From: a virus
DNA: 64,000 nucleotides
IMG/VR virus record: IMGVR_UViG_3300033145_000274
Location: 1-64,000 of that record
Reading direction: 5' to 3' (one strand)
Position numbers and translations under genes: made by a program. The stretch's first letter is position 1, and each line of letters starts with the position of its first letter. Shown here one piece after another: positions 36,307-51,831 of the stretch. The notes beneath the pieces were generated by a model. That model did no database searches. It saw only the letters and a list, made by a program, of their open reading frames with translations, and was not told where the DNA came from.

Positions 36307-37111
36307 CTTGCAATTCTCCTTCTGGTGATAAAAACGGTTTGTCCATGATGCCATCCTCGAACTCCATGACCTCATTCCAATCATCGCGTGTAATCTGGGC
36401 AGCCATCTTCATTTTCTCTGCTTGATGCCCCTCTTTAACACGACTACGATGTATGTCCAATTCCTTAACAAGTTCAAAAAAGTTATGCCGGCTCTCTTCA
36501 ATCTGCTTAAAACGTTGGTCACGTGAACCTTTTAGGTCACGCAACTTGGCGTCTTTACGCGCCTGATAATCTAAATGTTGTTTGGCCATGGTTAATTTAG
36601 CCGCAGACAGAGAATTAACCTGTGTCTTCCAAGCATTCAAGCTCAAAGCATCGCGGTCCTCAAAAGCCTTGTCCTCTTCCGTAACAATCACCTTTTCAAG
36701 CTCATCCATTAAACGCATGGCATTAGTTTGAGCCGCAATGGCACGCTGAGAAAATATATCAAGCATAATCAGGTCTTTCATCATCAACTCATCTGTAGCT
36801 ACAATATCAGATGAAGACACAAGTTGATTACTATACGACGCCCACGATTGTTCAAAAAACCCAACTTCTGACCCCATAAGGCCCTTTTTTATTTCCACCC
36901 AAAAAATACTTGCATGAAGGCGTGCAACCCAATCACTCTGTTCAATGGTTCGTTCTACAGTCGGTAGGGCCGCTATCTGCCTACGTACTGCATCTTCAGT
37001 ACGCCGCAACTTCATCGCAATTTCCGCCACGGTCATTGTTTCATGATTGGCAGCCACGTATTCTTGCTCAGACCTACTAATCTTACCACGTTTCTTGGTC
37101 GTCGTCGTCAT
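36278..37111 (-). CDS. Probable terminase small subunit (HTH plus coiled coil)
   Basis: A 277-residue protein. Residues 10-48 (ISRSEQEYVAANHETMTVAE...RRTEDAVRRQI) form a helix-turn-helix like those in small terminases and DNA-recognition proteins; the rest is long, charged and helical. It lies upstream of large terminase, separated by two inserted genes. Assignment is by HTH, helix content and position; another DNA-binding role is possible. Confidence 0.55.
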   Translation of the reverse strand: MTTTTKKRGKISRSEQEYVAANHETMTVAEIAMKLRRTEDAVRRQIAALPTVERTIEQSDWVARLHASIFWVEIKKGLMGSEVGFFEQSWASYSNQLVSSSDIVATDELMMKDLIMLDIFSQRAIAAQTNAMRLMDELEKVIVTEEDKAFEDRDALSLNAWKTQVNSLSAAKLTMAKQHLDYQARKDAKLRDLKGSRDQRFKQIEESRHNFFELVKELDIHRSRVKEGHQAEKMKMAAQITRDDWNEVMEFEDGIMDKPFLSPEGELQDDRLQNEQK

Positions 37112-37712
37112 TTAACATATCTCCAATAATGCTTCGCACAGACGCCACCACCGCATCTTGCTTTGACTTACTCAAGCGAGCGCCATCAAGCAAGCGCATG
37201 TAATCGGCTCTAAGCTCCAATGGTATCTCATCAGAAACACATTGCAACAATTCAGCACGCGATATATGTGTAAATACATCGAGGTCATCAGATGGGATAA
37301 CGTGAGCAACTTTAGAAGCATCGCATGACTCCACTAAACTACGTTTGGCTTGATTACGATAGTACCACCCAGACCATTTAGCACACTCATTCTTATCCTC
37401 AAATTCTACACAACAAGTTTTGTCGGATGAGTTGACGAAACCACAAGATAAGCAAGGAGGTGAGTTCCTGTGCAATTTATTACGTCGTAGGTTGATGAAC
37501 TGATTTCTCACGCACACGCGGAGAAATGTCTTTAGGGAGCAGCCCTTGTCTGGGAGGAAGCTCGGAAGGGCTTCTGTTGCAAATATAAATCCTTCTTGAC
37601 GTAGGTCATCTTCATCATAGTATCCAAAACAAAAATTAGATACAAGACCATTGACGGCATTATATATGTCGTCCAAAACTTGTTGTTCGGTATAGCCTTC
37701 GGGAATATACAT
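37083..37712 (-). CDS. Sigma-factor-like protein with zinc-finger insert
   Basis: A 209-residue protein. Residues ~30-78 (DEDDLRQEGFIFATEALPSF, then SLKTFLRVCVRNQFINLRRN) match sigma70 region 2, which binds core polymerase and the -10 box. It is followed by a cysteine cluster (CLSCGFVNSSDKTCC plus C) that may bind zinc. A helical C-terminus (SKSKQDAVVASVRSIIGDML) could be a region-4-like HTH. Position at the head of the late operon suggests it directs late transcription (inference). Confidence 0.65.
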   Translation of the reverse strand: MYIPEGYTEQQVLDDIYNAVNGLVSNFCFGYYDEDDLRQEGFIFATEALPSFLPDKGCSLKTFLRVCVRNQFINLRRNKLHRNSPPCLSCGFVNSSDKTCCVEFEDKNECAKWSGWYYRNQAKRSLVESCDASKVAHVIPSDDLDVFTHISRAELLQCVSDEIPLELRADYMRLLDGARLSKSKQDAVVASVRSIIGDMLNDDDDQETW

Positions 37713-41523: not shown

Positions 41524-41551
41524 TTGCTTTCGACGATATACATGGTATAAT
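41524..41551 (+). promoter_or_regulatory. Early promoter P1
   Basis: TTGCTT, 16-base spacer containing CGATA, TATAAT. Preceded by GGGG. Drives the 41575 gene. Confidence 0.75.
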
Positions 41552-41574
41552 CCAGTAGTTGAAAGGATACGACC

Positions 41575-41736
41575 ATGCCTGATGGATACAAGCGAAAAAG
41601 AAGGAACCGAGGGGATATGCGGTCACGATTCTACGCCGCATATCGGTCTGCTCGATTTGCTGCCCGTTTTGGTATGGTACGTATTGACGTAGTCCGAATC
41701 TGTGTTACAATCAGGGAGAAAAAAGATGAGCATTAA
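41575..41736 (+). CDS. Small very basic protein, 53 residues
   Basis: Reads MPDGYKRKRRNRGDMRSRFY; Arg/Lys make up a large share, suggesting nucleic-acid binding. AAAGGA lies upstream. Its 3' part contains promoter P2 and it overlaps the next start. Short and unrecognised, so moderate confidence. Confidence 0.45.
   Translation: MPDGYKRKRRNRGDMRSRFYAAYRSARFAARFGMVRIDVVRICVTIREKKDEH
41684..41711 (+). promoter_or_regulatory. Early promoter P2
   Basis: TTGACG, 16-base spacer with CCGAA, TACAAT; 15 bases upstream of the 41726 ATG. Confidence 0.6.
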
Positions 41737-42016
41737 GTTTCGCGTAGACAATACCGGTCTGGACGTGGATATTCACGTCAATAACGCCGATGAGGGGTTC
41801 TACACCAAGAGTATGTGCTGTGGGGGTATCGAACACCCCCCATTCGTCTCCGTCACATGGGGCCAGTGGAACCACGACATTACCCCCCCCACCAGTCGGA
41901 TGGTTACCATGTACCTCGATAGGGTGGATGTCCTTGAGCTACAAGAGGCCCTTGCCCAGCGATTGGGGGAGTTGGACAAGGCCCAAAAGGAGTACGACGA
42001 GGCCCAAGACACCTAG
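41726..42016 (+). CDS. Small early protein, unknown
   Basis: A 96-residue protein starting MSIKFRVDNTGLDVDIHVNN after GGGAG. Beta-rich N-terminal half with CCGG, and a C-terminal helix (LQEALAQRLGELDKAQKEYD). A terminator follows. No recognised family. Confidence 0.7.
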   Translation: MSIKFRVDNTGLDVDIHVNNADEGFYTKSMCCGGIEHPPFVSVTWGQWNHDITPPTSRMVTMYLDRVDVLELQEALAQRLGELDKAQKEYDEAQDT

Positions 42017-42031
42017 TCAGCCCCCTCCCTG

Positions 42032-42068
42032 AGCCCTGCTGGCGTTCCCCCGCCAGTGGGGCTTTTTT
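42032..42068 (+). terminator. Terminator
   Basis: AGCCCTGCTGGCG pairs with CGCCAGTGGGGCT, then TTTTTT. It directly precedes a CGTAAG box cassette. Confidence 0.85.
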
Positions 42069-42165
42069 CGTAAGTGCTTACGTCACAACGACTTACGTCA
42101 AAAGGGCGGCCCCCACATCGACGTAACCCCTTACACAGCAACGACTTACGAAAACCTCAAGTTTA
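42069..42165 (+). repeat. Intergenic CGACTTACG cassette, copy 1
   Basis: Palindrome CGTAAGTGCTTACG (42069-42082), then two ACGACTTACG boxes (about 42087 and 42141), a GGCGGCCCCC block, and TCAAGTTT. Same layout as copies near 43300, 44165, 46540, 47235, 48705, 50300 and 51525. Confidence 0.7.
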
Positions 42166-42169
42166 TGGG

Positions 42170-42197
42170 TTGACTTACCGATAACATATGATAGAAT
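42170..42197 (+). promoter_or_regulatory. Early promoter P3
   Basis: TTGACT, 16-base spacer with CCGATA, TAGAAT; TCAAGTTT upstream. The ATG at 42207 lies only 10 bases after the -10 box. Confidence 0.8.
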
Positions 42198-42206
42198 GAG
42201 GACACT

Positions 42207-42368
42207 ATGAACATTATCCGATTCCTGACCCACGTCGCCTATGTTGGCGATAAGCACCGCCCCGAGGGGGTCAGCGTCCCCCGCTGGCAAGCCATGGTGA
42301 AGTGGCTGGCCCTCCGCGATAGCGAGGGTCACAGCCGAACCAGCTTGGCGGCGGTCCATGAGCGATAG
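42207..42368 (+). CDS. Small early protein, possibly leaderless
   Basis: A 53-residue protein reading MNIIRFLTHVAYVGDKHRPE. The ATG lies at or within about 3 bases of the predicted transcription start, so a leaderless message is likely. Its last codons overlap copy 2 of the 50-bp repeat. Unrecognised. Confidence 0.5.
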   Translation: MNIIRFLTHVAYVGDKHRPEGVSVPRWQAMVKWLALRDSEGHSRTSLAAVHER

Positions 42369-42375
42369 TCAGCGA
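42327..42375 (+). repeat. 50-bp dispersed repeat, copy 2
   Basis: Starts GGTCACAGCCGAACCAGCTT and ends GATAGTCAGCGA, just before promoter P4. Confidence 0.5.
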
Positions 42376-42382
42376 ATTGGGC

Positions 42383-42410
42383 TTGCCATTGCCGAAAAGT
42401 ATGATATAAT
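42383..42410 (+). promoter_or_regulatory. Early promoter P4
   Basis: TTGCCA, 16-base spacer with CCGAA, TATAAT. Drives the 42444 gene. Confidence 0.75.
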
Positions 42411-42443
42411 ACAACAGTCACCACAACCACTGGAGGGCCAAAC

Positions 42444-42764
42444 ATGCCCCGTCTTACTCAAGCTCAAATGTCAAACCTCATGGTCATATACGACAATGAA
42501 ACCGACCCTGTGTGTCGCAACCACCTGGGCAGCATCATCCGCCGACAGGTGAAACTGTTCACGGACCGCCCCGCCACCACCGCCACGCCCCGGCCCTACG
42601 GCCCCAACGACTTCAGCCGTATGACCAACGAGGAAATCCACGCCGCCATGGGAACCGGCAAAATCCATGCCATTAAACTGGTAAGGGACCGCACACACCT
42701 GGGTTTGCTTGACGCCAAGCGGATGGTCGAACGCTTGGTTCCTGAGTGTGTCCAAACTTTCTGA
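42444..42764 (+). CDS. Small protein with L7/L12 C-terminal-like segment
   Basis: A 106-residue protein, GGAGGG upstream. Residues ~79-101 (IHAIKLVRDRTHLGLLDAKR) follow the pattern of the ribosomal protein bL12 C-terminal domain (IKxVRxxTxLGLKEAKxxVE), known in stand-alone phage proteins. The N-terminal 70 residues are different and polar. It may contact translation factors or other partners; that is inference. Confidence 0.65.
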   Translation: MPRLTQAQMSNLMVIYDNETDPVCRNHLGSIIRRQVKLFTDRPATTATPRPYGPNDFSRMTNEEIHAAMGTGKIHAIKLVRDRTHLGLLDAKRMVERLVPECVQTF

Positions 42765-42784
42765 AAACTTCTCAAGCTTTGGGG

Positions 42785-42813
42785 TTGACCCAACCGATAA
42801 AACATGATATAAT
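42785..42813 (+). promoter_or_regulatory. Early promoter P5
   Basis: TTGACC, 17-base spacer with CCGATA, TATAAT; TCAAGCTTTGGGG upstream. Drives the 42848 gene. Confidence 0.8.
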
Positions 42814-42847
42814 AGGGGCATACAACACACGAACAAGGGAGAAAATC

Positions 42848-43024
42848 ATGTGCGGTATTTGCGGCGGCGAAGTACATGTCAATGGTGACGGCGACCTCCT
42901 GTGTATGGGGTCATGCGGAAGCGTCTTGACCCGTGAGGAAATCGACGCAGACGAACCGTCCCACCCCCAAGTGGAAGAATGGGACAGTGAATGGGAGGAA
43001 TATCAAGACTTTTACGAGGGGTGA
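42848..43024 (+). CDS. Small zinc-ribbon-like acidic protein
   Basis: A 58-residue protein starting MCGICGGEVHVNGDGDLLCM; two cysteine pairs (CGIC, CMGSC) suggest a zinc ribbon, followed by an acidic tail (EEWDSEWEEYQDFYEG). GGGAG upstream. Partner unknown. Confidence 0.6.
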   Translation: MCGICGGEVHVNGDGDLLCMGSCGSVLTREEIDADEPSHPQVEEWDSEWEEYQDFYEG

Positions 43025-43283
43025 GGAGTGCTACCCAAAGTCTGGGGATGCTCACCCCCACCTTATATCCCCAAGGGGATTGGGGGGTTCAGGCGTAGCA
43101 TATCGTAAAGCTCTGTTGCTCAATGCGAAAGGCCCTGCCCCTCCCTTGAAAATCCATGGCCCCAGTACGGGGGCCACTCATGTGGGGGAGTGTACATAAC
43201 CCATGTGAGGAAGTGGTTGTTCGCCTCGTTCTACCACAATAATCCTGAGAATGAGGTTGCTATCTTTTCGTTTCTCTCCCTTG

Positions 43284-43320
43284 AGCCCTGCAACGACGTA
43301 AGTCGTTGTGGGGCTTTACT
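43284..43320 (+). terminator. Terminator hairpin with GTAA tetraloop
   Basis: AGCCCTGCAACGAC, GTAA, GTCGTTGTGGGGCT then T-rich. The stem contains the cassette motif ACGACGTAAGTCGT. Start of cassette copy 2. Confidence 0.75.
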
Positions 43321-43407
43321 TTACGTCAACAAGGCGGCCCCCGGCTTGACGCAACCCCTTGCTATCAAAGGATTTACGACAATCTCATAAACTCTCAAGT
43401 TTCGGCC

Positions 43408-43435
43408 TTGACTTTCCGATACACTATGATATAAT
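43408..43435 (+). promoter_or_regulatory. Early promoter P6
   Basis: TTGACT, 16-base spacer with CCGATA, TATAAT; TCAAGTTT upstream. Drives the radical SAM gene. Confidence 0.85.
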
Positions 43436-43457
43436 AGTCGTAACAAAGGGAGAAACC

Positions 43458-44153
43458 ATGTACTTGCAAATCACTACTCGTTGCAATATGTCCTGTGCTC
43501 ACTGTTGTTTTTCATGCACAAAAGAGGGGGATGACATGCCCCTCTCAGTCTTCCGCAAGGCCATTGAATTCGACTGCTACATCACACTGGGGGGTGGCGA
43601 ACCCACCCTACACAGACACTTCAATACCATGCTGCTGGAATCGCTAGCAAGCAAAGACCATGGAGAGGGGGGCTTGACAGTCATCACAAATGGCAGCGTC
43701 ACCCGCACAGCCCTATTGTTGGCAGCGTTGGCCAAGTCTAATGTACTAGATGCCCAAATTAGCCGCGATGAATACCACGACCCTATCGACCCACGAGTGG
43801 TCAGGGCCTTTGAGAAAATCGGGGAAAAAACCCGCTCCGTCACCCACCTCCAACACCACCCCGGCATCCGCAACACCACCCAACAGGACGACCCCAAACC
43901 CTACGGTAGGGGCATTGAACTATTGGGACTAGAACCAGACGACCTGGAACATGATGGTTCCGATTGTATGTGTTCCGACCACATTGTCAAGCCAAATGGC
44001 AATATCATGCAATGTGGGTGCCCCGACGCCCCCATGATAGGTGATGTAGAAAATGGTATTGGTGATTCCTGCTCGGGTGGTGGGGAGTGTTGTCATAGTT
44101 CCGAGTTTCACAACTGGTGTATAGAAAACGACCACGAACACTGGCTAGTATAA
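43458..44153 (+). CDS. Radical SAM protein with SPASM-like C-terminus
   Basis: A 231-residue protein starting MYLQITTRCNMSCAHCCFSC (AAAGGGAG upstream). C9, C13 and C16 form the CxxxCxxC site for a 4Fe-4S cluster that cleaves S-adenosylmethionine; GGGEPTLH near residue 40 is the SAM-binding GGEP motif. The C-terminus has many cysteines (CMCSDHIVKPNGNIMQCGCP, GDSCSGGGECC), like a SPASM auxiliary cluster. Such proteins modify peptides or other substrates. It has its own promoter and is flanked by terminators; substrate unknown. Confidence 0.85.
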   Translation: MYLQITTRCNMSCAHCCFSCTKEGDDMPLSVFRKAIEFDCYITLGGGEPTLHRHFNTMLLESLASKDHGEGGLTVITNGSVTRTALLLAALAKSNVLDAQISRDEYHDPIDPRVVRAFEKIGEKTRSVTHLQHHPGIRNTTQQDDPKPYGRGIELLGLEPDDLEHDGSDCMCSDHIVKPNGNIMQCGCPDAPMIGDVENGIGDSCSGGGECCHSSEFHNWCIENDHEHWLV

Positions 44154-44158
44154 CACCC

Positions 44159-44194
44159 GGCCCCGCATCGACGTAAGTTGGTGCGGGGCCTTGA
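44159..44194 (+). terminator. Terminator hairpin with GTAA loop
   Basis: GGCCCCGCATCGAC, GTAA, GTTGGTGCGGGGCC, then TTGACTT. Follows the radical SAM gene and begins cassette copy 3. Confidence 0.7.
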
Positions 44195-44195
44195 C

Positions 44196-44266
44196 TTACG
44201 ACGATAAGGTGGCCCCCGGCTTGACGCAACCCCTGTCGTGGCAACGACTTACGATAATCTCAAGTT
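44196..44266 (+). repeat. Intergenic CGACTTACG cassette, copy 3
   Basis: Contains GACTTACGACGATAAGGTGG, GGCCCCCGGC, then GCAACGACTTACGATAAT and TCAAGTT, as in copy 1. Confidence 0.65.
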
Positions 44267-44271
44267 GGTGA

Positions 44272-44300
44272 TTGACTTTGCCGATATAATATGGTAGAAT
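44272..44300 (+). promoter_or_regulatory. Early promoter P7
   Basis: TTGACT, 17-base spacer with CCGATA, TAGAAT. The next ATG (44307) is only 7 bases after the -10 box, so the transcript is leaderless or non-coding. Confidence 0.75.
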
Positions 44301-44306
44301 GACACC

Positions 44307-44426
44307 ATGAGCAAGGAAGCAACCTCTGTGTGGGTGTCTGTGTGTGATAACACGCCGTCCCACCCCAACCAGCTTGGTTGGCCGCGAATAAGTCGTAGTC
44401 AGCGACTTTGTGCAGTCTGGGGTTGA
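44307..44426 (+). CDS. Doubtful 39-residue ORF or small RNA
   Basis: Reads MSKEATSVWVSVCDNTPSHP to a TGA inside promoter P8. No ribosome site, predicted leaderless start, and half of it is copy 3 of the 50-bp repeat. A short non-coding RNA between two promoters is equally possible. It lies downstream of the radical SAM gene and carries two cysteines, but nothing more links them. Confidence 0.3.
   Translation: MSKEATSVWVSVCDNTPSHPNQLGWPRISRSQRLCAVWG
44355..44405 (+). repeat. 50-bp dispersed repeat, copy 3
   Basis: Starts CGTCCCACCCCAACCAGCTT and ends CGTAGTCAGCGAC, 17 bases before promoter P8. Confidence 0.55.
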
Positions 44427-44451
44427 CTTGTGGGCTACCGTGGTGTATAAT
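44423..44451 (+). promoter_or_regulatory. Early promoter P8
   Basis: TTGACT, 17-base spacer without CCGATA, TATAAT (in TGTATAAT). GGGG just upstream. Confidence 0.75.
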
Positions 44452-44468
44452 TGCATGGAGGGCAGAAA

Positions 44469-44579
44469 ATGAAGTGTCTAGTGTGCGGTCATAACATGGT
44501 ACAGAAACGTAATACACAGACCGGTAAAGTCTACTGGGTATGTGAAGCGTGTCAAGCAAGTATCAAAATAAAGGACTAA
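44469..44579 (+). CDS. Zinc-ribbon micro-protein
   Basis: 36 residues, MKCLVCGHNMVQKRNTQTGK ... CEACQ, with two CxxC pairs 21 residues apart: a minimal zinc ribbon. GGAGGG lies upstream. First gene of the operon with the phosphoribosyltransferase. Confidence 0.65.
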   Translation: MKCLVCGHNMVQKRNTQTGKVYWVCEACQASIKIKD

Positions 44580-44583
44580 AAAC

Positions 44584-45024
44584 ATGTCGGGGTGTGCTGA
44601 TTATCTGAAAAACGCAATTGACGCCAACGCCCGTAAGGAATTGGCGGCTAAAATGTGCAAATCCCTACGCAAACACATGAAGCATGGTCTGGAATTCGAT
44701 GCTATCGCCGTACGTGGCGTATCGGGCATGTTGGTTGGTGTGACCGTTTCGGACAAACTGGACATCCCATTGGTGGTAGTCCGCAAGGAAACCTCCCCGC
44801 ATTCCAGCAACGCATGTGAGGGCATTCCACGGGTACATAGTAAGAAGTACATCATTGTAGACGATTGCATCGACAGTGGCAACACCATTCATAAAATAGT
44901 CGCCCTACTAGATGAAATCTATCCCGATTCCCAATGTGTGGGAATCTGCCTGTATGGTCAGAGTGATTATGACAGTGCGCCCGCCAAGGTACTATTCAAG
45001 AAATATGGCCGGTTGGCCGGTTGA
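44584..45024 (+). CDS. Phosphoribosyltransferase-like protein
   Basis: A 146-residue type I PRTase-fold protein. The PRPP-binding loop YIIVDDCIDSGNTI (residues ~90-103) has the two acidic residues and the GxT of the family; VRGVSGMLVG near residue 44 fits the PPi loop. Likely acts in nucleotide salvage or cofactor synthesis, base specificity unknown. Ends in the -35 box of the next promoter. Confidence 0.85.
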   Translation: MSGCADYLKNAIDANARKELAAKMCKSLRKHMKHGLEFDAIAVRGVSGMLVGVTVSDKLDIPLVVVRKETSPHSSNACEGIPRVHSKKYIIVDDCIDSGNTIHKIVALLDEIYPDSQCVGICLYGQSDYDSAPAKVLFKKYGRLAG

Positions 45025-45049
45025 CAATTCCCGCTCCGTATGCTATAAT
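45021..45049 (+). promoter_or_regulatory. Consensus sigma70 promoter P9
   Basis: TTGACA, 17-base spacer, TATAAT: full consensus in both boxes. A perfect 9-bp-arm inverted repeat covers the -10 box (next entry). Confidence 0.9.
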
Positions 45050-45056
45050 AGCATAC
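45038..45056 (+). promoter_or_regulatory. Palindromic candidate operator over P9
   Basis: GTATGCTATAATAGCATAC is a perfect 19-base palindrome centred in the -10 box, a classic place for a repressor site. Confidence 0.5.
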
Positions 45057-45069
45057 ATGGGAGAAAAAG

Positions 45070-45276
45070 ATGAAGCCAGACAAAGCAACCCGACACCGCG
45101 ACCAGTACAAACGTCAGTTGACAATGTTGGAGGTCTACATAACGGGACGCATCAAACAGCTTGACAATATCACCCGGCAACGACCGGCGGAAAGTACCGC
45201 CTGTGAAATGGCCCAGGGCGAATTAAATATGCTTCTGACCCAGGTTCTCCCTGAAATGAGAAAGGTACAATCGTGA
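45070..45276 (+). CDS. Small helical protein, unknown
   Basis: A 68-residue basic, helical protein (MKPDKATRHRDQYKRQLTML) with GGGAG upstream. Its TGA overlaps the GTG start of the next gene (GTGA), so the two are coupled. Unrecognised. Confidence 0.65.
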   Translation: MKPDKATRHRDQYKRQLTMLEVYITGRIKQLDNITRQRPAESTACEMAQGELNMLLTQVLPEMRKVQS

Positions 45277-45581
45277 ACATTCTTGAATCGTGTCGTATCA
45301 ACGACGTGTTGGGCATTATCTACGGCCAGAACAGCCATGAGCGTGTGTGTCGCGTATTGGAAGTCCGAGACCTCGCCCAGCAACCACTTGCCAGTAAAAC
45401 CCTGGCCCGTCGCCCATACCTCCAACGAGGTACTCGCCTTGTTACATGTCAAAGTGCCGATGGTCAAATTCGGTCATTCTACGCTGGCGTCGAACAAACA
45501 GCCCGGCCCATTCCGAAACTGCGAGCGGCATGGCTGCACCTGCGACGAAAGCTACCAGCCAGAAAGCGTGTGACAACGTGA
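45273..45581 (+). CDS. Small protein, GTG start, unknown
   Basis: A 102-residue protein reading MNILESCRINDVLGIIYGQN, ending in a very basic tail (KLRAAWLHLRRKLPARKRV). Coupled by GTGA overlaps on both sides. Beta-rich middle could be an SH3-like fold (inference). Confidence 0.6.
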   Translation: MNILESCRINDVLGIIYGQNSHERVCRVLEVRDLAQQPLASKTLARRPYLQRGTRLVTCQSADGQIRSFYAGVEQTARPIPKLRAAWLHLRRKLPARKRVTT

Positions 45582-45844
45582 ACTACGAAGTGATGCATGG
45601 CCAACGTACGCATTATATCCAGGCGGGCAATTCCTATGCCGCGTGCCTGGATGTTTTGCGTATAGAAGCCGAAGAAAATGACGTACAACAAGCCCAGTTT
45701 CGCGTGATACACTTGCCACATGGCAAACTAGAATGTATCCCCATGGCTTCCGTGCTTAGATTGCGACTAATCGCCCTAAACCCTGACGGTGCAAGTGGTT
45801 GCGACGAACAGGGGGCACCCCCAATGGACTTAACCCATTGGTAA
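45578..45844 (+). CDS. Small protein, GTG start, unknown
   Basis: An 88-residue protein starting at the GTG at 45578 (VNYEVMHGQRTHYIQAGNSY), coupled to the upstream stop. No motif recognised. A CGACTTACG box and promoter P10 follow. Confidence 0.6.
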   Translation: MNYEVMHGQRTHYIQAGNSYAACLDVLRIEAEENDVQQAQFRVIHLPHGKLECIPMASVLRLRLIALNPDGASGCDEQGAPPMDLTHW

Positions 45845-45876
45845 CAAACGACTTACGAAAACATTCAAGTTTGGGG

Positions 45877-45904
45877 TTGCATTGTCCGATATTTACAGTA
45901 TAAT
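45877..45904 (+). promoter_or_regulatory. Early promoter P10
   Basis: TTGCAT, 16-base spacer with CCGATA, TATAAT; ACGACTTACG and TCAAGTTTGGGG upstream (45848-45876). Confidence 0.8.
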
Positions 45905-45967
45905 GGGGGCACAAGCGACAACAACACCAATCGGAGCGGTTGCTGTAGAAATACGCAACCCAAAATC

Positions 45968-46150
45968 ATGTATCGTTGCGAAAAGTGTGGGGTGACTACG
46001 GAGCCTGGGCAAAAGGCTTTGTTGGTCATCACACAAACCAGACCACGGACCTACCTCAATGGTCGCGACCAAGTTGTTGGCCAGGGCCATGAGACCGTGA
46101 AAGAAATCAAAGTCTGCCCCAAGTGCTACCCGAAAGAGGAGGACGAATAG
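45968..46150 (+). CDS. Zinc-ribbon small protein
   Basis: A 60-residue protein starting MYRCEKCGVTTEPGQ and ending CPKCYPKEEDE: two CxxC pairs. A 60-base leader contains GGTTGC/GCAACC hairpin arms and no strong ribosome site, so translation may be controlled. Stop overlaps the next GTG start. Confidence 0.65.
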   Translation: MYRCEKCGVTTEPGQKALLVITQTRPRTYLNGRDQVVGQGHETVKEIKVCPKCYPKEEDE

Positions 46151-46347
46151 TGGAAAACGGAACCCTCACATTACGGCTAGCTAATGGCAAGGAACTCACC
46201 ACAAGGCGTGGGTTTGAATTGGCCTGCTTTCTGGCCAGTCAGGGCAGCAGCATCGTACCCCTTTCCTCCAAGCGAAGGGGTGGAAAGTCTAAGGGTGCTC
46301 GTGGACGTGGCCGCCAGATGGTCAAGCGTACTAGAGACGCACAGTAG
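46150..46347 (+). CDS. Small basic protein, GTG start
   Basis: A 65-residue protein (VENGTLTLRLANGKELTTRR) with GAGGAGG upstream, ending in a Lys/Arg/Gly tail (KRRGGKSKGARGRGRQMVKR) likely to bind nucleic acid. The tRNA gene follows 7 bases later. Confidence 0.6.
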   Translation: MENGTLTLRLANGKELTTRRGFELACFLASQGSSIVPLSSKRRGGKSKGARGRGRQMVKRTRDAQ

Positions 46348-46354
46348 AAACATT

Positions 46355-46423
46355 GCGGGATAGTGTAACGGCAACACGCAGCCCTCATACGGCTACACTC
46401 TGGGTTCAACTCCCGGTCCCGCG
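46355..46423 (+). tRNA. tRNA with anticodon CAT (Met or lysidine-type Ile)
   Basis: 69 bases. Acceptor GCGGGAT pairs with GTCCCGC; D arm GTGT/ACAC; anticodon arm with loop CTCATAC (one C-A mismatch at the stem top); T arm CTGGG/CCCGG with loop TTCAACT. CCA is not encoded. CAT can read Met or, if modified, Ile AUA. Confidence 0.85.
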
Positions 46424-46535
46424 ACTTAGCCAAGCAAGGTTATGAGCCTCGCAACGTGTTAGGAAGTTCCAACCTGTCGGCCCGAGAGGACAAGATACCG
46501 AGTGGAAGACACCGAGGCCCTAACGGCGCGACAAA
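46424..46535 (+). other. Possible structured RNA downstream of the tRNA
   Basis: No gene. GCCTCG (about 46446) can pair with CGAGGC (about 46513), and GTTAGG (about 46459) with CCTAAC (about 46519), in interleaved order, which would make a pseudoknot. It is co-transcribed with the tRNA and ends in a terminator. Role unknown. Confidence 0.3.
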
Positions 46536-46570
46536 GCCCCGTAATGACGTAAGTTGTTGCGGGGCCTTTG
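46536..46570 (+). terminator. Terminator hairpin with GTAA loop
   Basis: GCCCCGTAATGAC, GTAA, GTTGTTGCGGGGC then TTTG. Start of cassette copy 4, which continues to about 46655. Confidence 0.65.
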
Positions 46571-46658
46571 TTTATGACAAATAGGTGGCCCCCGGCGTAG
46601 CGTAACTCCTGTCCTACCAACGATTTACAATAATTACAAAAACTTTCAAGCTTCGCTG

Positions 46659-46686
46659 TTGCATTACCGATAATCTATGATATAAT
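46659..46686 (+). promoter_or_regulatory. Early promoter P11
   Basis: TTGCAT, 16-base spacer with CCGATA, TATAAT; TCAAGCTT upstream. Confidence 0.8.
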
Positions 46687-46723
46687 AAGTGCATACAACA
46701 AACCACAACCATGGGAGCAAACG

Positions 46724-46885
46724 ATGATGTTGATTAAGCTTGGTTCCACGATTGAGTTGTCTGGACACCCCGTCCAGGTTATTCGGATTGCCAACGACGG
46801 CGTGACCGTCCGGCGTAAAGGCGGCCACTGTCTGAAAATCGACTTGAAACAGGCAGCCCGTGCCGTGACACCCAAACCGGCCTGA
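46724..46885 (+). CDS. Small beta-rich protein, 53 residues
   Basis: Reads MMLIKLGSTIELSGHPVQVI and GVTVRRKGGHCLKIDLKQAA. The pattern suggests a tiny SH3- or KOW-like barrel. GGGAG lies upstream; the start may be 46724 or 46727. Its end overlaps copy 4 of the 50-bp repeat. Confidence 0.6.
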   Translation: MMLIKLGSTIELSGHPVQVIRIANDGVTVRRKGGHCLKIDLKQAARAVTPKPA

Positions 46886-46914
46886 TTGGCCGTCTGTGGT
46901 GAGTAGTCAGTGAA
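46865..46914 (+). repeat. 50-bp dispersed repeat, copy 4
   Basis: Starts GTGACACCCAAACCGGCCTG, ends AGTAGTCAGTGA. Immediately followed by the tRNA-like element. Confidence 0.5.
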
Positions 46915-47229
46915 CCCGTAGGCCGGTCAGCATCGGAGGTAACAGAGCACGAACAATACCGTATGGGGTCAAGTACACGCCCCCTGCAACGGAAAGTACG
47001 CCGTTGGGGATACTGTACGGACGTTCGAGCTTGGAATTACTATTCCCACCGCACAAGCGGGTGCGACTCCCGCTACGGGTAGCTTATAGTGTAGGCCCAC
47101 ACGGGCCGAATAACGAGGCGTCCAAATCTCCACGCCTACAACCCCGCTACAGCGGGGAGAGACTGTAAGGGAGTAGGACCGGAGCAAAACGCAAAGCGAG
47201 TATCGGTAACCGATTGCCACCTACCCCTT

Positions 47230-47265
47230 GGCCCCACGCGACGTAAGTCGTGGTGGGGCCTTAAC
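47230..47265 (+). terminator. Terminator hairpin with GTAA loop
   Basis: GGCCCCACGCGAC, GTAA, GTCGTGGTGGGGCC, then TTAACTT. Start of cassette copy 5 (GACTTACGACGATAAGG, GGCCCCCGC, AGGACTTACGACAAT). Confidence 0.7.
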
Positions 47266-47352
47266 TTACGACGATAAGGAGGCCCCCGCATCGCCGTAAA
47301 CCCTGACACAGCAAGGACTTACGACAATCCGAGAAACTTTCAAGTTCCAGTG

Positions 47353-47380
47353 TTGACTTTCCGATACAATATGATAGAAT
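47353..47380 (+). promoter_or_regulatory. Early promoter P12
   Basis: TTGACT, 16-base spacer with CCGATA, TAGAAT; TCAAGTT upstream. Drives the GP88-like operon. Confidence 0.85.
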
Positions 47381-47416
47381 ACATGCTTCCAACACAACAC
47401 ACACATGGAGCGACAC

Positions 47417-48199
47417 ATGTTAAAATTCTCCCAGGCGAACGCCAAAACAGATGCCCTATACGGGGTTCTCCAATTGAGACAATTTCTATTCGACAACCGC
47501 AAGGTCTACAGTATAGACTTGCCAGCGGGCTACACCTGCCCTGGAGCTAAAATCTGTATGTCACGGGCAGTACCCCGCCAAGACGACCCCTCACGATTCA
47601 CTATCAGAGACGGCCCCCATTGTGAATTCCGATGCTTTTCCGCCTCTCAAGAGGTAATCTACCCCCCCACTCGCCGACTACGTAAACGCAACCTGGATGC
47701 CCTGCGAAGCATAGGCAAATCGGGGGGTGGAGTCAACCGCTATCGTGACCTAATCCTGAAGAGTCTACCCACCAACGCGGGGGTCATTCGGTACCACGTT
47801 GGGGGTGACTTCTACTGTATCTCCTACCTGCGGGGGGCTATTGCAGCCGCCAAGCAACGTCCCGATGTGCTGTTCTACGCCTATACTAAGAGCCTACACT
47901 TTCTGAAGGGTATAGTACTCCCCGACAACTTCCGGCTCACCCTTAGTCGAGGGGGCAAGTATGACCACCACACAGAGTGGTTGGATATCCGCCAAGCGGT
48001 GGTAGTCTATTCGGAGGAAGAGGCTGCCCAAATGGGACTGCCTGTCGATAAGGACGATTCTCACGCCGCATCCCCCAATAAAGGTAATAGCAAAGGGGGG
48101 TCGTTTGCCCTCCTGGTCCACGGCGTTCAGCCCGCTAATACCGTCGCCGCCGCCGCCTTGTCCGCCCTGCGGGGAAAGGGTAGCTATGCCCGCAAATAG
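47417..48199 (+). CDS. GP88-family protein
   Basis: A 260-residue protein. SIDLPAGYTCPGAKICMSRA near residue 32, the CEFRCFSASQE segment, RLRKRNLD, then RYHVGGDFYCISY and DVLFYAYTKSLHF match the gene product 88 family of phages and plasmids. Function of the family is unknown; conserved cysteines hint at metal binding. Start at 47417 has GGAG 6 bases upstream (ATG at 47405 has none). It overlaps the methyltransferase gene by 14 bases. Confidence 0.8.
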   Translation: MLKFSQANAKTDALYGVLQLRQFLFDNRKVYSIDLPAGYTCPGAKICMSRAVPRQDDPSRFTIRDGPHCEFRCFSASQEVIYPPTRRLRKRNLDALRSIGKSGGGVNRYRDLILKSLPTNAGVIRYHVGGDFYCISYLRGAIAAAKQRPDVLFYAYTKSLHFLKGIVLPDNFRLTLSRGGKYDHHTEWLDIRQAVVVYSEEEAAQMGLPVDKDDSHAASPNKGNSKGGSFALLVHGVQPANTVAAAALSALRGKGSYARK

Positions 48200-48650
48200 T
48201 CAGCAGACAGCCATACATCGCAAACGTGCTAGCGTGCCCTGCCGATGGTTATTTGAGCAAGGCAAGCTAATAGCCCCCATACTCGATTGGGGTTGCGGGC
48301 ACGGCAAAGACGTAATCTGGATGCGGAACGCTTACGGGTATGACCCGCACTACCAGCCGAGGCTCCCCGTCGATGGGGATTTGTTCAACACCGTATTGTG
48401 TACCTATGTGCTCAATACAATTCCAAACTACCACGACCGTTGTGTTATTGTAGCGGAGGCCCTGGAGTACCTCGTTCATGGGGGGTGGATGTACATTACC
48501 ATTCGGGCAGACAAAAAGAACCTAAAGGGGTGGACACTACGGGGTACATGGCAAAACTACATAGGGAACCAACTACAGCATGGAGACTTCACCCTCGTGC
48601 GACGTACCAGTGGATATGAAATATGGGGGTGGCAACAACCTCCCTATTAG
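48186..48650 (+). CDS. Small SAM-dependent methyltransferase
   Basis: A 154-residue protein starting MPANSQQTAIHRKRASVPCR. The SAM-binding motif I is ILDWGCGHGKDV near residue 35; LFNTVLCTYVLNTIPN is motif IV-like. The HRKRA start and overall pattern resemble the small methyltransferases annotated near DNA phosphorothioation genes; target unknown. Co-transcribed with GP88. Confidence 0.75.
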   Translation: MPANSQQTAIHRKRASVPCRWLFEQGKLIAPILDWGCGHGKDVIWMRNAYGYDPHYQPRLPVDGDLFNTVLCTYVLNTIPNYHDRCVIVAEALEYLVHGGWMYITIRADKKNLKGWTLRGTWQNYIGNQLQHGDFTLVRRTSGYEIWGWQQPPY

Positions 48651-48668
48651 CGTGTGTGGTTGTGTTGA

Positions 48669-48703
48669 AGCTCACGGGTGGTTCGCTACCCGTGGGCTTT
48701 TTT
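48669..48703 (+). terminator. Terminator
   Basis: AGCTCACGGGTG pairs with ACCCGTGGGCT, then TTTTT. Followed by cassette copy 6 (CGTAAGTGCTGACG, CAACAACTTACGACG, ACGACTTGCG). Confidence 0.85.
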
Positions 48704-48815
48704 CGTAAGTGCTGACGTAGCAACAACTTACGACGATTTGGTGGCCCCCGCAAAACCATAAACCCTTGCACCACAACGACTTGCGTCAATCCGTAAAAAT
48801 GGTGAAGTTTGGGGT

Positions 48816-48843
48816 TGCAAGTTTCGATAAACATGGTAGAATG
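48816..48843 (+). promoter_or_regulatory. Early promoter P13
   Basis: TTGCAA, 16-base spacer with TCGATA, TAGAAT; GAAGTTTGGGG upstream. Confidence 0.75.
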
Positions 48844-48884
48844 ATGGCAGTTTCAACAACATCACTTTTTTCAAGGAGTCATTT

Positions 48885-50186
48885 ATGACTACGCAAGCAC
48901 AAGAGCAGTCCGGCCAGTCGATTGCAACCGAGAGGCAGGAAAGCTACAGCGGCGACGTTATTCGCGAGAATCTGGAAATGGGCGACAAGCAAGGCTTCAA
49001 GGCCGTCGCCAAGTATTGGCTCGAAAACGGCTGTATGTCGTTCGACAAGGCTCAAGAGCGATTGGCCAGCGACCAACAGCAAATCGAAGATTTCCACTCC
49101 CCCCTGAAGGAGTGGGATGTTGTAGTCAAGCACAGTGGCATCGCCTTTCGACACCTGTCCAGTGGGCGGGATTACTCCCCCACCGACCATGCCCTCAATC
49201 TCATGTGTCAGGTTGGCCGTGGCATGTCCTCATGGACAGTACGCAATCTGAGGGACCCCATCCCCCACGCCACAAAGAAAGATGCGGACGGCGAGCCGGT
49301 AGCGGTCAAGGGTGGCGAACGTGGTCAGGCCGACTTTGAGGTACTCCGCGACTACATTAAGGTACACCTGTTCCACTCCGACCGTGTGGACCAGACCAAG
49401 CCCAGACTGTTCCGAACCTGGAGTGATGGCACCCTACGTGCCCTGCTTAGTGAGCAGTACACGATTGTCAACAACTTGTGGTTTCTGGACGTACTCCGCA
49501 AGGCCATTCCGGGGGGTGTTGTCTCCCACTGGCAGGGTGACGCCGATAGCATCTTCGGCAACATTCTGATTCCCGATACAATTCGGGCCGAAAGTGATTC
49601 CGACTTCGGCGGTATGCTCAGCGTGGGCAATAGCGAGATAGGAACCCGCCGAATTTCCTCCCTCCCCAGCGTGTTCCGAGCCATCTGTATGAACGGGTGC
49701 ATTTGGGACCAAGAATCCGGCACGGGTATCAACAAGGTTCACCGTGGCAAGGTCAATTTCATCGACCTGGAACATCACATCATCGAGAACCTAGAAGCTC
49801 AGATTCCCCTACTTCCCCAGGGTATCCAGCGGGTCCTCGGGTTGCGTGCGTACGGCTGTGGTGACACCCCCTTGTCCAACCTGTTGGCCCAGACTGCCAT
49901 CGACCATAGTCTGTCCAAACGACAGGTGGGGGTTATCTACGACGGCTGGAATGAGGAGCTACGCCTGCTAGGCCGCAAGGAAGCCCAGACCGCTTACGGG
50001 CTCACCAACGCCATCACACGGGCCGGGCAGCAGCTTGGCAGCAATGACCAGTGGGTCCGGTTCGACACCATCGGTGGGGAGTTCGCCAACTTCAACCGTG
50101 ACGGGTGGGATAAGTTCCGTAACCGGGCCGACAACCTGTCCGCCAAACAGGTGGAGAAGAGACTCGGAGAACTGGCCACTGTATGA
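48885..50186 (+). CDS. DUF932-like phage/plasmid protein
   Basis: A 433-residue protein, AAGGAG upstream. Residues ~185-290 (RALLSEQYTIVNNLWFLDVL, IPDTIRAESDSDFGGMLSVG, SEIGTRRISSLPSVFRAICM) resemble the DUF932/TIGR03299 family found in phages and plasmids, whose role is unknown. It is the largest early gene in this stretch and has its own promoter. Possible role in replication or host takeover is only inferred. Confidence 0.7.
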   Translation: MTTQAQEQSGQSIATERQESYSGDVIRENLEMGDKQGFKAVAKYWLENGCMSFDKAQERLASDQQQIEDFHSPLKEWDVVVKHSGIAFRHLSSGRDYSPTDHALNLMCQVGRGMSSWTVRNLRDPIPHATKKDADGEPVAVKGGERGQADFEVLRDYIKVHLFHSDRVDQTKPRLFRTWSDGTLRALLSEQYTIVNNLWFLDVLRKAIPGGVVSHWQGDADSIFGNILIPDTIRAESDSDFGGMLSVGNSEIGTRRISSLPSVFRAICMNGCIWDQESGTGINKVHRGKVNFIDLEHHIIENLEAQIPLLPQGIQRVLGLRAYGCGDTPLSNLLAQTAIDHSLSKRQVGVIYDGWNEELRLLGRKEAQTAYGLTNAITRAGQQLGSNDQWVRFDTIGGEFANFNRDGWDKFRNRADNLSAKQVEKRLGELATV

Positions 50187-50254
50187 TAGCCATGCTTATC
50201 ATCACGGCAATAATCGTCAACATATTGCTACATATTGCCGAACGCCAGCAGTGA
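50183..50254 (+). CDS. 23-residue membrane micropeptide
   Basis: MIAMLIITAIIVNILLHIAE plus RQQ: one membrane helix and a short charged end. ATG overlaps the upstream stop (ATGA), and a strong terminator follows 6 bases after its stop. Too short to identify. Confidence 0.45.
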   Translation: MIAMLIITAIIVNILLHIAERQQ

Positions 50255-50259
50255 ACATA

Positions 50260-50296
50260 CCCCCCGACTGGACTATCCGGTCGGGGGGATGTTTTT
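50260..50296 (+). terminator. Strong terminator
   Basis: CCCCCCGAC (50260-50268) pairs with GTCGGGGGG (50280-50288), then TGTTTTTG. Confidence 0.85.
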
Positions 50297-50299
50297 GTT

Positions 50300-50400
50300 T
50301 GTCCTAAGTGGTTGTGGCGTAACGACTTAGGGCAAACAGGGGGCCGCCATCATGACACAACTCCCTATGTAGCCGTAACTTATATTCATTCAAGTTTTGG
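50300..50400 (+). repeat. Intergenic cassette, copy 7 (diverged)
   Basis: CCTAAGTGG, GTAACGACTTAGGG, GGGGGCCGCC, then CGTAACTTAT and TCAAGTTTTGGGG. Same order of elements but more diverged boxes. Confidence 0.5.
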
Positions 50401-50402
50401 GG

Positions 50403-50430
50403 TTGACTTATCCGAATAGTATTGTATAAT
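50403..50430 (+). promoter_or_regulatory. Early promoter P14
   Basis: TTGACT, 16-base spacer with CCGAATA, TATAAT; TCAAGTTTTGGGG upstream. Confidence 0.8.
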
Positions 50431-50476
50431 AGAGTAACACCAAACAACAATTCCCCTTTTTCAGGAGTGTTTTAGA

Positions 50477-51076
50477 ATGAAGCGTTTACTCGATTGCTTG
50501 TCCCAAGCAGAAGTCGGTCAAGAGGTAACCTTTAACTACCATGGTGGTAGTACCCCCGGCGAAGCACGTACCGTCCGTGTTATGGCCTCGACCACCGATG
50601 CGTTGCTGTCCGAACACATGCTTGGTCTGGACATTGTCCAGAACGAAATATGTGACTACCGCTTTGACCGGGCCAGTGATGTGTATATCATCACCGATGA
50701 CAAACCCGTCCCCAACATCAGGGTACGACACACCACCCATACATTCGTCGAAGCCCGTAAACGCCTGCACAACCAGATTGACGAACTCAACGGTGAAGAC
50801 CTGGCCGAAATCCTGGCGGAAATCGAAGGCGACGACAATGGTAATTTCGACGCAAGCACGGGCGAGGTAACCTTACTACGCAGTGTTTTGATTCCACATT
50901 GCAAACTCAATGCCGACAAGGCAGGCTTGGACTGGGTCAACGAAGACGGCGAAGTGCTCACCAGCCAGTGGCAGTTTCTCAACAACGCCGTACGTCTGTA
51001 TCTGGAAGACAACGAAGTTCCCCCCGTCGAATTTGCCTGCAAACTTTTTCAACATTTGGGATTGACAATCCAATAG
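50477..51076 (+). CDS. WYL-like domain protein
   Basis: A 199-residue protein, AGGAGTGTTTTAGA upstream. Residues 15-70 (VTFNYHGGSTPGEARTVRVM ... YRFDRASDVYII) resemble the small SH3-like WYL domain that senses ligands or nucleic acid; the rest is helical and acidic. No HTH is visible. A regulatory or modulator role is likely, but weakly supported. Confidence 0.5.
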   Translation: MKRLLDCLSQAEVGQEVTFNYHGGSTPGEARTVRVMASTTDALLSEHMLGLDIVQNEICDYRFDRASDVYIITDDKPVPNIRVRHTTHTFVEARKRLHNQIDELNGEDLAEILAEIEGDDNGNFDASTGEVTLLRSVLIPHCKLNADKAGLDWVNEDGEVLTSQWQFLNNAVRLYLEDNEVPPVEFACKLFQHLGLTIQ

Positions 51077-51089
51077 AACATGTTATAAT
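51062..51089 (+). promoter_or_regulatory. Early promoter P15
   Basis: TTGACA, 16-base spacer, TATAAT; lies in the last codons of the previous gene. Spacer lacks CCGATA. Confidence 0.85.
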
Positions 51090-51135
51090 AGACGTGTTCA
51101 ACTTACCTGTTTTTTCCTCAACAAGGAGTAGTATC

Positions 51136-51432
51136 ATGGCGAAAGCCACATTTTCCAACACCGATTTGTGTGTCGCATGGGCACATCAGGCTAAGGCCGA
51201 CCCCCAGGGGACACGCGGAGACGTAGTCCGTACCCTCATGGGCAAAATGGAGCAAGACCCCGGCAACGCCGAAGAGTACCGCAAGGTCTACAACAACGTG
51301 ACCCAGCGGGTCAAGCAGTTGGGCAACCACCCGACAAAACCGGTTCAGTTCCCGCAACTGGCGGCTGGCAAGAAGGGTGCCCGACGCACCGACGCCCAAA
51401 TGGAAGACCTCCAGGCTCTCTTCATCGACTAG
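51136..51432 (+). CDS. Small early protein, unknown
   Basis: A 98-residue protein starting MAKATFSNTDLCVAWAHQAK, AAGGAG upstream. Helical, with a Gly/Lys/Arg stretch (LAAGKKGARRTDAQME). The consensus promoter and ribosome site suggest high expression. Function unknown. Confidence 0.7.
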   Translation: MAKATFSNTDLCVAWAHQAKADPQGTRGDVVRTLMGKMEQDPGNAEEYRKVYNNVTQRVKQLGNHPTKPVQFPQLAAGKKGARRTDAQMEDLQALFID

Positions 51433-51490
51433 GGTATCGCTCAAGGCACGAGGGTACCGCTGTCACCAGCGAAATACCCTGGACCCGAAA

Positions 51491-51522
51491 CCCCAGCAGC
51501 CGAAAGGTTGCTGGGGTTTTTT
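51491..51522 (+). terminator. Terminator with GAAA tetraloop
   Basis: CCCCAGCAGCC, GAAA, GGTTGCTGGGG, then TTTTTT. Confidence 0.9.
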
Positions 51523-51615
51523 CGTAAGTGCTTACGTCGCAACAACTTGCGACGATTAGGGGGGCACCACATCGACGTAACTGGTGTGGTAACAACAACT
51601 TACGGAAATTCTCAA
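51523..51615 (+). repeat. Intergenic CGACTTACG cassette, copy 8
   Basis: CGTAAGTGCTTACG, CAACAACTTGCGACG, a GGGGGGC block, ATCGACGTAAC and CAACAACTTACGG, then TCAAG. Confidence 0.65.
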
Positions 51616-51619
51616 GCCA

Positions 51620-51648
51620 TTGACTTCTTTGTGTCGATATGGTATAAT
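51620..51648 (+). promoter_or_regulatory. Early promoter P16
   Basis: TTGACT, 17-base spacer with TCGATA, TATAAT. Confidence 0.8.
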
Positions 51649-51803: not shown

Positions 51804-51831
51804 TTGACAAGAGCGCCAGGAAGTGTATAAT
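51804..51831 (+). promoter_or_regulatory. Early promoter P17
   Basis: TTGACA, 16-base spacer, TATAAT (in TGTATAAT). Confidence 0.85.

Follow-up and report, generated by a model that had tools for sequence, protein, structure and literature searches.

We examined a window of 64,000 bases, corresponding to bases 1-64000 of the 125,079-base virus record IMGVR_UViG_3300033145_000274 (linear class, possibly a fragment), in which a block of predicted plus-strand promoters at 41.4-54.0 kb repeatedly carries a two-part element, T[A/C]AAG (TMAAG) followed 17 or 18 bases later by CGATA. The record is assigned to a tailed phage because it encodes a large terminase subunit and a tape-measure protein. We are almost certain that the bipartite element is real and selected, and consider it probable that it is a promoter of the sigma type. 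The full proposal, for which we see an even chance, is that these are dual-sigma promoters, namely sigma70 sites with interleaved sigma28-like sites, the latter read by a sigma factor that the phage itself encodes. Throughout, the terms promoter and early denote predictions from sequence.

A loose scan of 41.4-54.0 kb on the plus strand returned 18 rows, which represent 17 distinct promoter-like sites since those at 42377 and 42383 overlap. The sites have TTGACA- and TATAAT-like boxes at 16-18 bp spacing, as expected of sigma70 promoters, and by eye the spacer holds CGATA, CCGAA, CCGAATA or CCAATA (the last at 51062) in 14 of the 17, leaving three that are motif-free (44423, 45021 and 51804). 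We also used a strict scan, with one rule for the whole 125-kb record, thereby extending the search to the rest of the record as an earlier note on this DNA had suggested. CGATA or CCGAW was present in 10 of 15 called promoters of 41.4-52.2 kb (+) versus only 1 of 43 elsewhere (Fisher p 5.7e-7, for a word class picked after the motif was seen). Both scans bear out the central claim of that note, that words of the CCGATA type recur in the spacers of these plus-strand promoters. Exact CGATA was found in 7 of the 15 spacers, a number reached in none of 20,000 spacer shuffles (shuffle maximum 4). The TCAAGTTT box that the note placed upstream is likewise real and spaced: composites of the form T[AC]AAG-N17/18-CGATA or CGAATA number nine in 41.4-52.2 kb (+), compared with a mean of 0.04 and a maximum of 2 in 200 dinucleotide shuffles.

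Away from promoters the word is unremarkable. The window contains 39 copies of CCGATA versus 21.5 expected, and CGATA occurs in the block 20 times on the plus strand and 11 times on the minus strand. By our assignment, 10 of the 20 plus-strand copies fall in promoters and 10 outside them (intergenic and coding counted together), which puts CGATA at about chance level outside. This count addresses the refuting condition raised earlier, that such words might be equally common in intergenic DNA without promoters. Promoters of the form TTGACA-16-TGnTATAAT elsewhere in the record are strong and lack the motif, which is therefore a property of the block and not of promoters throughout this phage; the single occurrence among the 43 promoters elsewhere likewise rejects a feature shared by all of its strong promoters. 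The record's nine plus-strand TCAAG copies comprise eight in the block and one at 68454, and elsewhere there is one TAAAG match per strand, which we take for chance.

Relatives were fetched by two proteins. Gap and register counts were made on this phage and related phage DNA (331 sources, 3.8 Mb), counting identical contexts once; loci L001-L005 and L225-L227 were excluded from overlap, gap and register counts, and decoy loci also from the latter two. The overlap count has 451 composites and the register count 450, because duplicate keys differ between them. A gap of 17 between T[A/C]AAG and CGATA was observed 191 times and a gap of 18 259 times, while every other gap from 8 to 30 had 6 to 28 occurrences (∼17). 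This spectrum, together with the shuffles, rejects a chance origin. A weight-matrix scan of ten records gave the 17/18 peak in seven; in G038, G039 and G040 the element was not clearly above shuffles. Of 41 whole records, 25 had at least four exact copies on the same strand (several of the other 16 are fragments), and a motif-rich record has almost all of its copies on a single strand, for example 15 to 0 in G016 and 0 to 12 in G001, with 0 to 3 per strand for reversed-pattern controls.

Many of the relatives' promoters have the same words at like places despite differing flanks. Because the word persists in promoters of phages with unrelated-looking flanks, there is good support for the earlier suggestion that CCGATA has a dedicated reader; GGGG ahead of the -35 box, noted earlier for most of the promoters, is not general, as relatives show CCCC, GGGC, GCTA and others in its place. 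Among the spacer 5-mers of 94 distinct strong promoters, those of this record among them, CGATA showed the greatest excess (33 versus 2.6 by a Markov model). Scanning viral contigs for TTGACA-GCCGATA-TATAAT returned at least 120 matches (80 loci listed), with up to 8 in one stretch, and the same scan with the rearranged decoy GACCGTA returned 47 stretches with one match each; a stricter, window-like pattern had no match in viral contigs. The composite was present in 32 of 50 motif-fetched versus 7 of 47 decoy-fetched loci.

The position of the element relative to the sigma70 promoter is not fixed. Measured from the start of CGATA, the TATAAT-like box begins at +12 bp in 157 of 450 composites, at +10, +11, +13 or +14 bp in 101, at +7 or +8 bp in 44 composites, and ahead of CGATA by 8 bp (register -8) in 42; a further 12 have other offsets and 94 have no strong sigma70 site. 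The spacer register is inflated in these counts since loci L105-L184 were selected with CGATA between TTGACA and TATAAT. In register -8, represented in this record by a site at 68454-68480, the TMAAG box is inside the sigma70 spacer and CGATA is downstream of the TATAAT-like box, which rejects a motif tied to the spacer. The unit floats over the sigma70 promoter in several registers and is thus not a spacer motif. The earlier note had its reader contact the spacer face, and this part of the claim is not supported, CGATA being half of a bipartite element; the note's observation is thus correct and of more interest than it claimed, and its interpretation is half right. A strong sigma70 site was overlapped by 352 of 451 elements versus 10 of 143 controls with a wrong gap. 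Where no such site was present, the element was located within 60 nt upstream of a ribosome-binding site and open reading frame in 18 of 75 cases versus 6 of 125 controls (p 9e-5).

The published sigma28/FliA consensus is TAAAGTTT-n11-GCCGATAA (PMC2859248, PMC7286023). Over 247 composites outside the window, the long form of our element is YTMAAG[AT]TT-N12/13-TGCCGATAW, so that its two words agree with TAAAGTTT at -35 and GCCGATAA at -10 as given there, and in the same order; TMAAG and CGATA were required for entry, and 80 of the loci were fetched with GCCGATA, which favours the preceding GC. The window array has TCAAG only, one base off the FliA -35 word. The FliA spacing of 11 bp was not recovered: gap 16, equivalent to n11, was found 23 times against a background of ∼17, and the peaks at 191 and 259 correspond to n12 and n13. 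Because the canonical gap is near background, the reader should differ from a standard FliA. Relative to flagellar sigma28 (FliA/SigD/WhiG), the octamers are 12-13 bp apart instead of the 11 in those accounts, C is allowed at the second -35 base, sigma70 boxes are interleaved, and the setting is phages. Actinobacterial FliA has a -35 variant (CTCA), which our literature searches did not bring up. Judged by its words, the element looks to work like a sigma28 promoter and, by its spacing, not like a standard one.

The same features could be read as the operator of a phage repressor or activator, whose likeness to a sigma28 promoter would be fortuitous and whose overlap with the sigma70 site would mark where such a protein acts. 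The frequency of overlap with strong sigma70 promoters suits an operator, as does the degenerate -10 box, TATGRR, that several elements classed as lacking a sigma70 site retain by eye at the usual place and register. An operator is nevertheless unlikely in our view, given that the element is non-palindromic, that its half-sites fit two sigma boxes at about sigma spacing, and that the unit adopts several registers relative to sigma70.

If the element is instead a promoter, its reader should be a sigma factor, and sigma-like genes were those sought systematically as candidates. The best candidate, as yet unproven, is the 209-amino-acid type A protein (Table 1), whose gene is located between the structural genes and the promoter block. 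Its region 2 scored 36.4 bits with Sigma70_r2 (cut-off 24), and its AlphaFold model (mean predicted local distance difference test, pLDDT, 84; predicted template modelling score 0.49) has a sigma domain 2, aligned by VIA-align at Z ∼9-10, and a three-helix C-terminal part. We identified 50 distinct type A proteins (E < 1e-50) in the DNA examined, 21-39% identical to that of the window in 42 of 43 cases. When 50 of the 80 listed motif loci were used, type A was found in 28 of 50 motif-fetched versus 2 of 47 decoy-fetched records, and the better-matching of the two decoy records has one composite in its 3.3-kb locus (L364). The motif was on the divergent side of type A in 21 of the 28 loci whose DNA extends 3 kb or more past the gene. 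In a tree of 28 of the 50 proteins (22 were dropped because the protein was short or the early DNA covered less than 3 kb) the motif is on both sides of the deepest split, with 21 motif-bearing members, 7 without, and at least 4 changes. Upstream of the type A gene itself, 11 of 49 cases have a plain sigma70-like promoter at 173-273 bp and 1 of 49 a sigma28-like promoter (TTAAG variant).

A second sigma-like protein of 209 amino acids, encoded at 124301-124930 outside the window, gave a model with a mean pLDDT of 76. PDB sequence searches returned weak sigma matches for both proteins. Among the 12 genes of the second family, a dual promoter lies 145-151 bp upstream in 3 near relatives, this record has the TTAAG form at 155 bp, one gene has an element at 336 bp, and 7 have none within 400 bp. 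Related records also encode shorter sigma-like proteins (157-169 amino acids). Neither class explains all of the data, since both are patchy among motif-rich records. With the FliA/WhiG subfamily profile TIGR02479 (cut-off 189.6), type A scored 14.6 bits and the second protein 19.1 bits, and the cut-off was exceeded in none of 40 other records.

A number of observations count against a phage sigma of type A as the reader, or against a second promoter altogether. Region 4 (Sigma70_r4) was not matched in type A by sequence profile, and it took flexible alignment to bring the C-terminal helices onto sigma region 4 (11-17 Å root-mean-square deviation, VIA-align); its Foldseek list consists mostly of sigma factors, none at E ≤0.001 (best 0.014). 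G002 has type A and a plain promoter array with zero composites. Conversely, the composite is present in 11 of 22 motif-fetched loci without type A, including G051 (5 copies) and G045 (3), all of which are possible fragments, and G038 and G039, which have the closest relatives of the second phage sigma, are without the motif. Type A may be a mere clade marker, as the same co-occurrence with the motif would be expected of every core gene in the clade. Finally, the TATGRR boxes mentioned above leave few clean sigma28-only sites.

Some of these observations would fit a host flagellar-type sigma (FliA/SigD/WhiG) as reader of the second code, with phage genes expressed in ordinary cells as well as in those where sigma28 is active. 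Both boxes fit the FliA consensus word for word, and a host FliA would explain the element in records where type A is the only sigma found, such as G001, as well as its absence from G002 if the host of that phage has no FliA. The spacing, however, is 1-2 bp over the consensus and uniform across divergent phages, the consensus spacing being near background, and a host reader is unlikely. Because several window sites reside in related intergenic cassettes (92-169 nt, 61-77% identical to the reference copy; families D1, D2 and D6), copying had to be tested, and recent duplication of a terminator-promoter cassette is rejected as the full cause of the shared words, and has next to no chance of being so, since the element persists with unrelated-looking flanks and widely divergent type A proteins and in registers that copying would not produce; it stands as copy history within the window.

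In the dual-sigma proposal, the first code would be a sigma70-type TTGACN-16/17-TGnTATAAT-like promoter serving the host primary holoenzyme, and the second a sigma28/FliA-like promoter with -35 YTMAAGTTT and -10 TGCCGATAW 12-13 bp apart, the key bases of the two being placed so as not to collide. The second code would be read by a non-primary sigma, most likely phage-encoded, with type A the best candidate. The sites overlap, so that one polymerase form would occupy a promoter at any time and genes could pass from the host to the phage-sigma holoenzyme without new promoters. What the sequences themselves offer is a conserved bipartite element with fixed inner spacing and floating register, and next to the array a gene for a sigma-like protein; from these we infer a promoter rather than an operator, type A as its reader, and a hand-over in time. 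More tentatively, a large and old clade of uncultivated tailed phages might use such "relay promoters" for hand-over from host to phage holoenzyme, the latter excluding the former by occupancy, by means of a small two-domain sigma with FliA-like words and a longer spacer.

Table 1. Predicted promoters of the block and sigma-like proteins of the record (positions in the window unless stated otherwise).
Feature	Position	Strand	Source or score
Sigma70-like TTGCTT-16-TATAAT, CGACGATA in spacer, no TMAAG box	41524..41551	+	loose scan
Sigma70-like TTGACG-16-TACAAT, CCGAA in spacer, no TMAAG box	41684..41711	+	loose and strict scans
Dual element TCAAGTTT-CCGATAA, interleaved with TTGACT-16-TAGAAT	42157..42197	+	
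Sigma70-like TTGCCA-16-TATAAT, GCCGAAA in spacer, no TMAAG box	42383..42410	+	loose scan
Dual element TCAAGCTT-CCGATAA, interleaved with TTGACC-17-TATAAT	42772..42813	+	
Dual element TCAAGTTT-CCGATAC, interleaved with TTGACT-16-TATAAT	43395..43435	+	
Dual element TCAAGTTG-TGCCGATAT, interleaved with TTGACT-17-TAGAAT; top score in record	44260..44300	+	
Sigma70-like promoter, no element	44423..44451	+	loose scan
Sigma70-like TTGACA-17-TATAAT, no element	45021..45049	+	loose scan
Dual element TCAAGTTT-CCGATAT, interleaved with TTGCAT-16-TATAAT	45865..45904	+	
Dual element TCAAGCTT-CCGATAA, interleaved with TTGCAT-16-TATAAT	46646..46686	+	
Dual element TCAAGTTC-CCGATAC, interleaved with TTGACT-16-TAGAAT	47340..47380	+	
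Variant dual element TGAAGTTT-TTCGATAA with TTGCAA-16-TAGAAT	48803..48842	+	loose scan
Variant dual element TCAAGTTT-CCGAATA with TTGACT-16-TATAAT	50390..50430	+	
Weak variant TCAACATT-CCAATA with TTGACA-16-TATAAT	51049..51089	+	loose scan
Dual element TCAAGCCA-TGTCGATAT with TTGACT-17-TATAAT, other register	51612..51648	+	
Sigma70-like TTGACA-16-TATAAT, no element	51804..51831	+	loose scan
Type A sigma-like protein, 209 amino acids, candidate reader	37083..37712	-	Sigma70_r2 E 4.6e-9
Second sigma-like protein, 209 amino acids, outside window near record end	G000:C1:124301-124930 (L009:301-930)	+	region 4 over cut-off, weak region 2

A tRNA-Met gene (46354-46425, +) and a GP88-family gene (47405-48199, +) are situated amid the dual promoters, and radical-SAM, phosphoribosyltransferase and methyltransferase genes are also within the block. 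A DNA search found no near DNA among phages for the record. Its terminase is 21-28% identical to those of 19 named phages, and the four genome matches are all metagenome bins, labelled Alphaproteobacteria, SAR202, Flavobacteriales and Gemmataceae.

Other words were noted near the promoters. Seven of 14 plus-strand positions of CGTAAGT in the record, and 9 of 14 of its inverse ACTTACG, fall at 42.0-51.6 kb (42069-51604) upstream of promoters, in many cases forming an inverted pair at 22 bp distance, to which an extra ACTTACG is added 22-36 bp before the -35 box; they are possibly a separate operator or activator site. Similar words are upstream of the promoters of G002, whose strong sigma70-like array (L319, G002:C1:1-20000) has no TMAAG box; several of its promoters have CCG, TCGG or TCGA right after the -35 box and no GATA, which looks as if the element had been lost or changed. 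TAGTCAGCGA has four copies, all on the plus strand (41450, 42364, 44394 and 51773), within repeats that have a small hairpin-like stretch ahead of sigma70-like promoters, and is also found in an array of the distant record G016 (112585-112870). TGGTGTAT(A), which has no clear -35 box with it, is over-represented upstream of structural genes on their strand, in the window (4867-37712, -) and in relatives, with strand counts of 5 to 0 in G000, 8 to 1 in G001, 3 to 0 in G008, 1 to 0 in G010 and 7 to 1 in G016; judging from this placement, it is likely to be a late promoter class.

If the dual-sigma proposal is true, these phages keep genes active when the sigma factor changes by means of two codes in the same 40-60 bp, repeated many times in a genome and in more than one register. 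The rules by which promoters may overlap could then be studied in 352 natural cases, and the sigma-like proteins of the phages would be candidates, open to direct testing, for a specificity like that of FliA but with a new spacing. What looks like a spacer motif would also prove to be one half of a second promoter. In the titles and abstracts of the open-licence literature, we found no report of sigma28-like promoters interleaved with sigma70 promoters in phages. At the middle promoters of T4, the activator MotA takes the place of the -35 contact, and there too a phage factor alters the promoter words used by the host polymerase; unlike with MotA, a second -35 word and a second -10 word occur here together, floating over the sigma70 boxes. 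Further parallels are phages phiEco32 and 7-11, in which, as proposed here, a phage sigma redirects the host core polymerase to promoters with words of its own. In the published account, the 7-11 sigma (gp47) has its own bipartite promoter, GTAAtg-(16)-aCTA, the phiEco32 sigma gp36 has the promoter word tAATGTAtA, and overlap with sigma70 promoters is not mentioned (PMC8948821). The promoters of those phages serve middle or late genes (PMC8948821), and their words differ from the ones described here.

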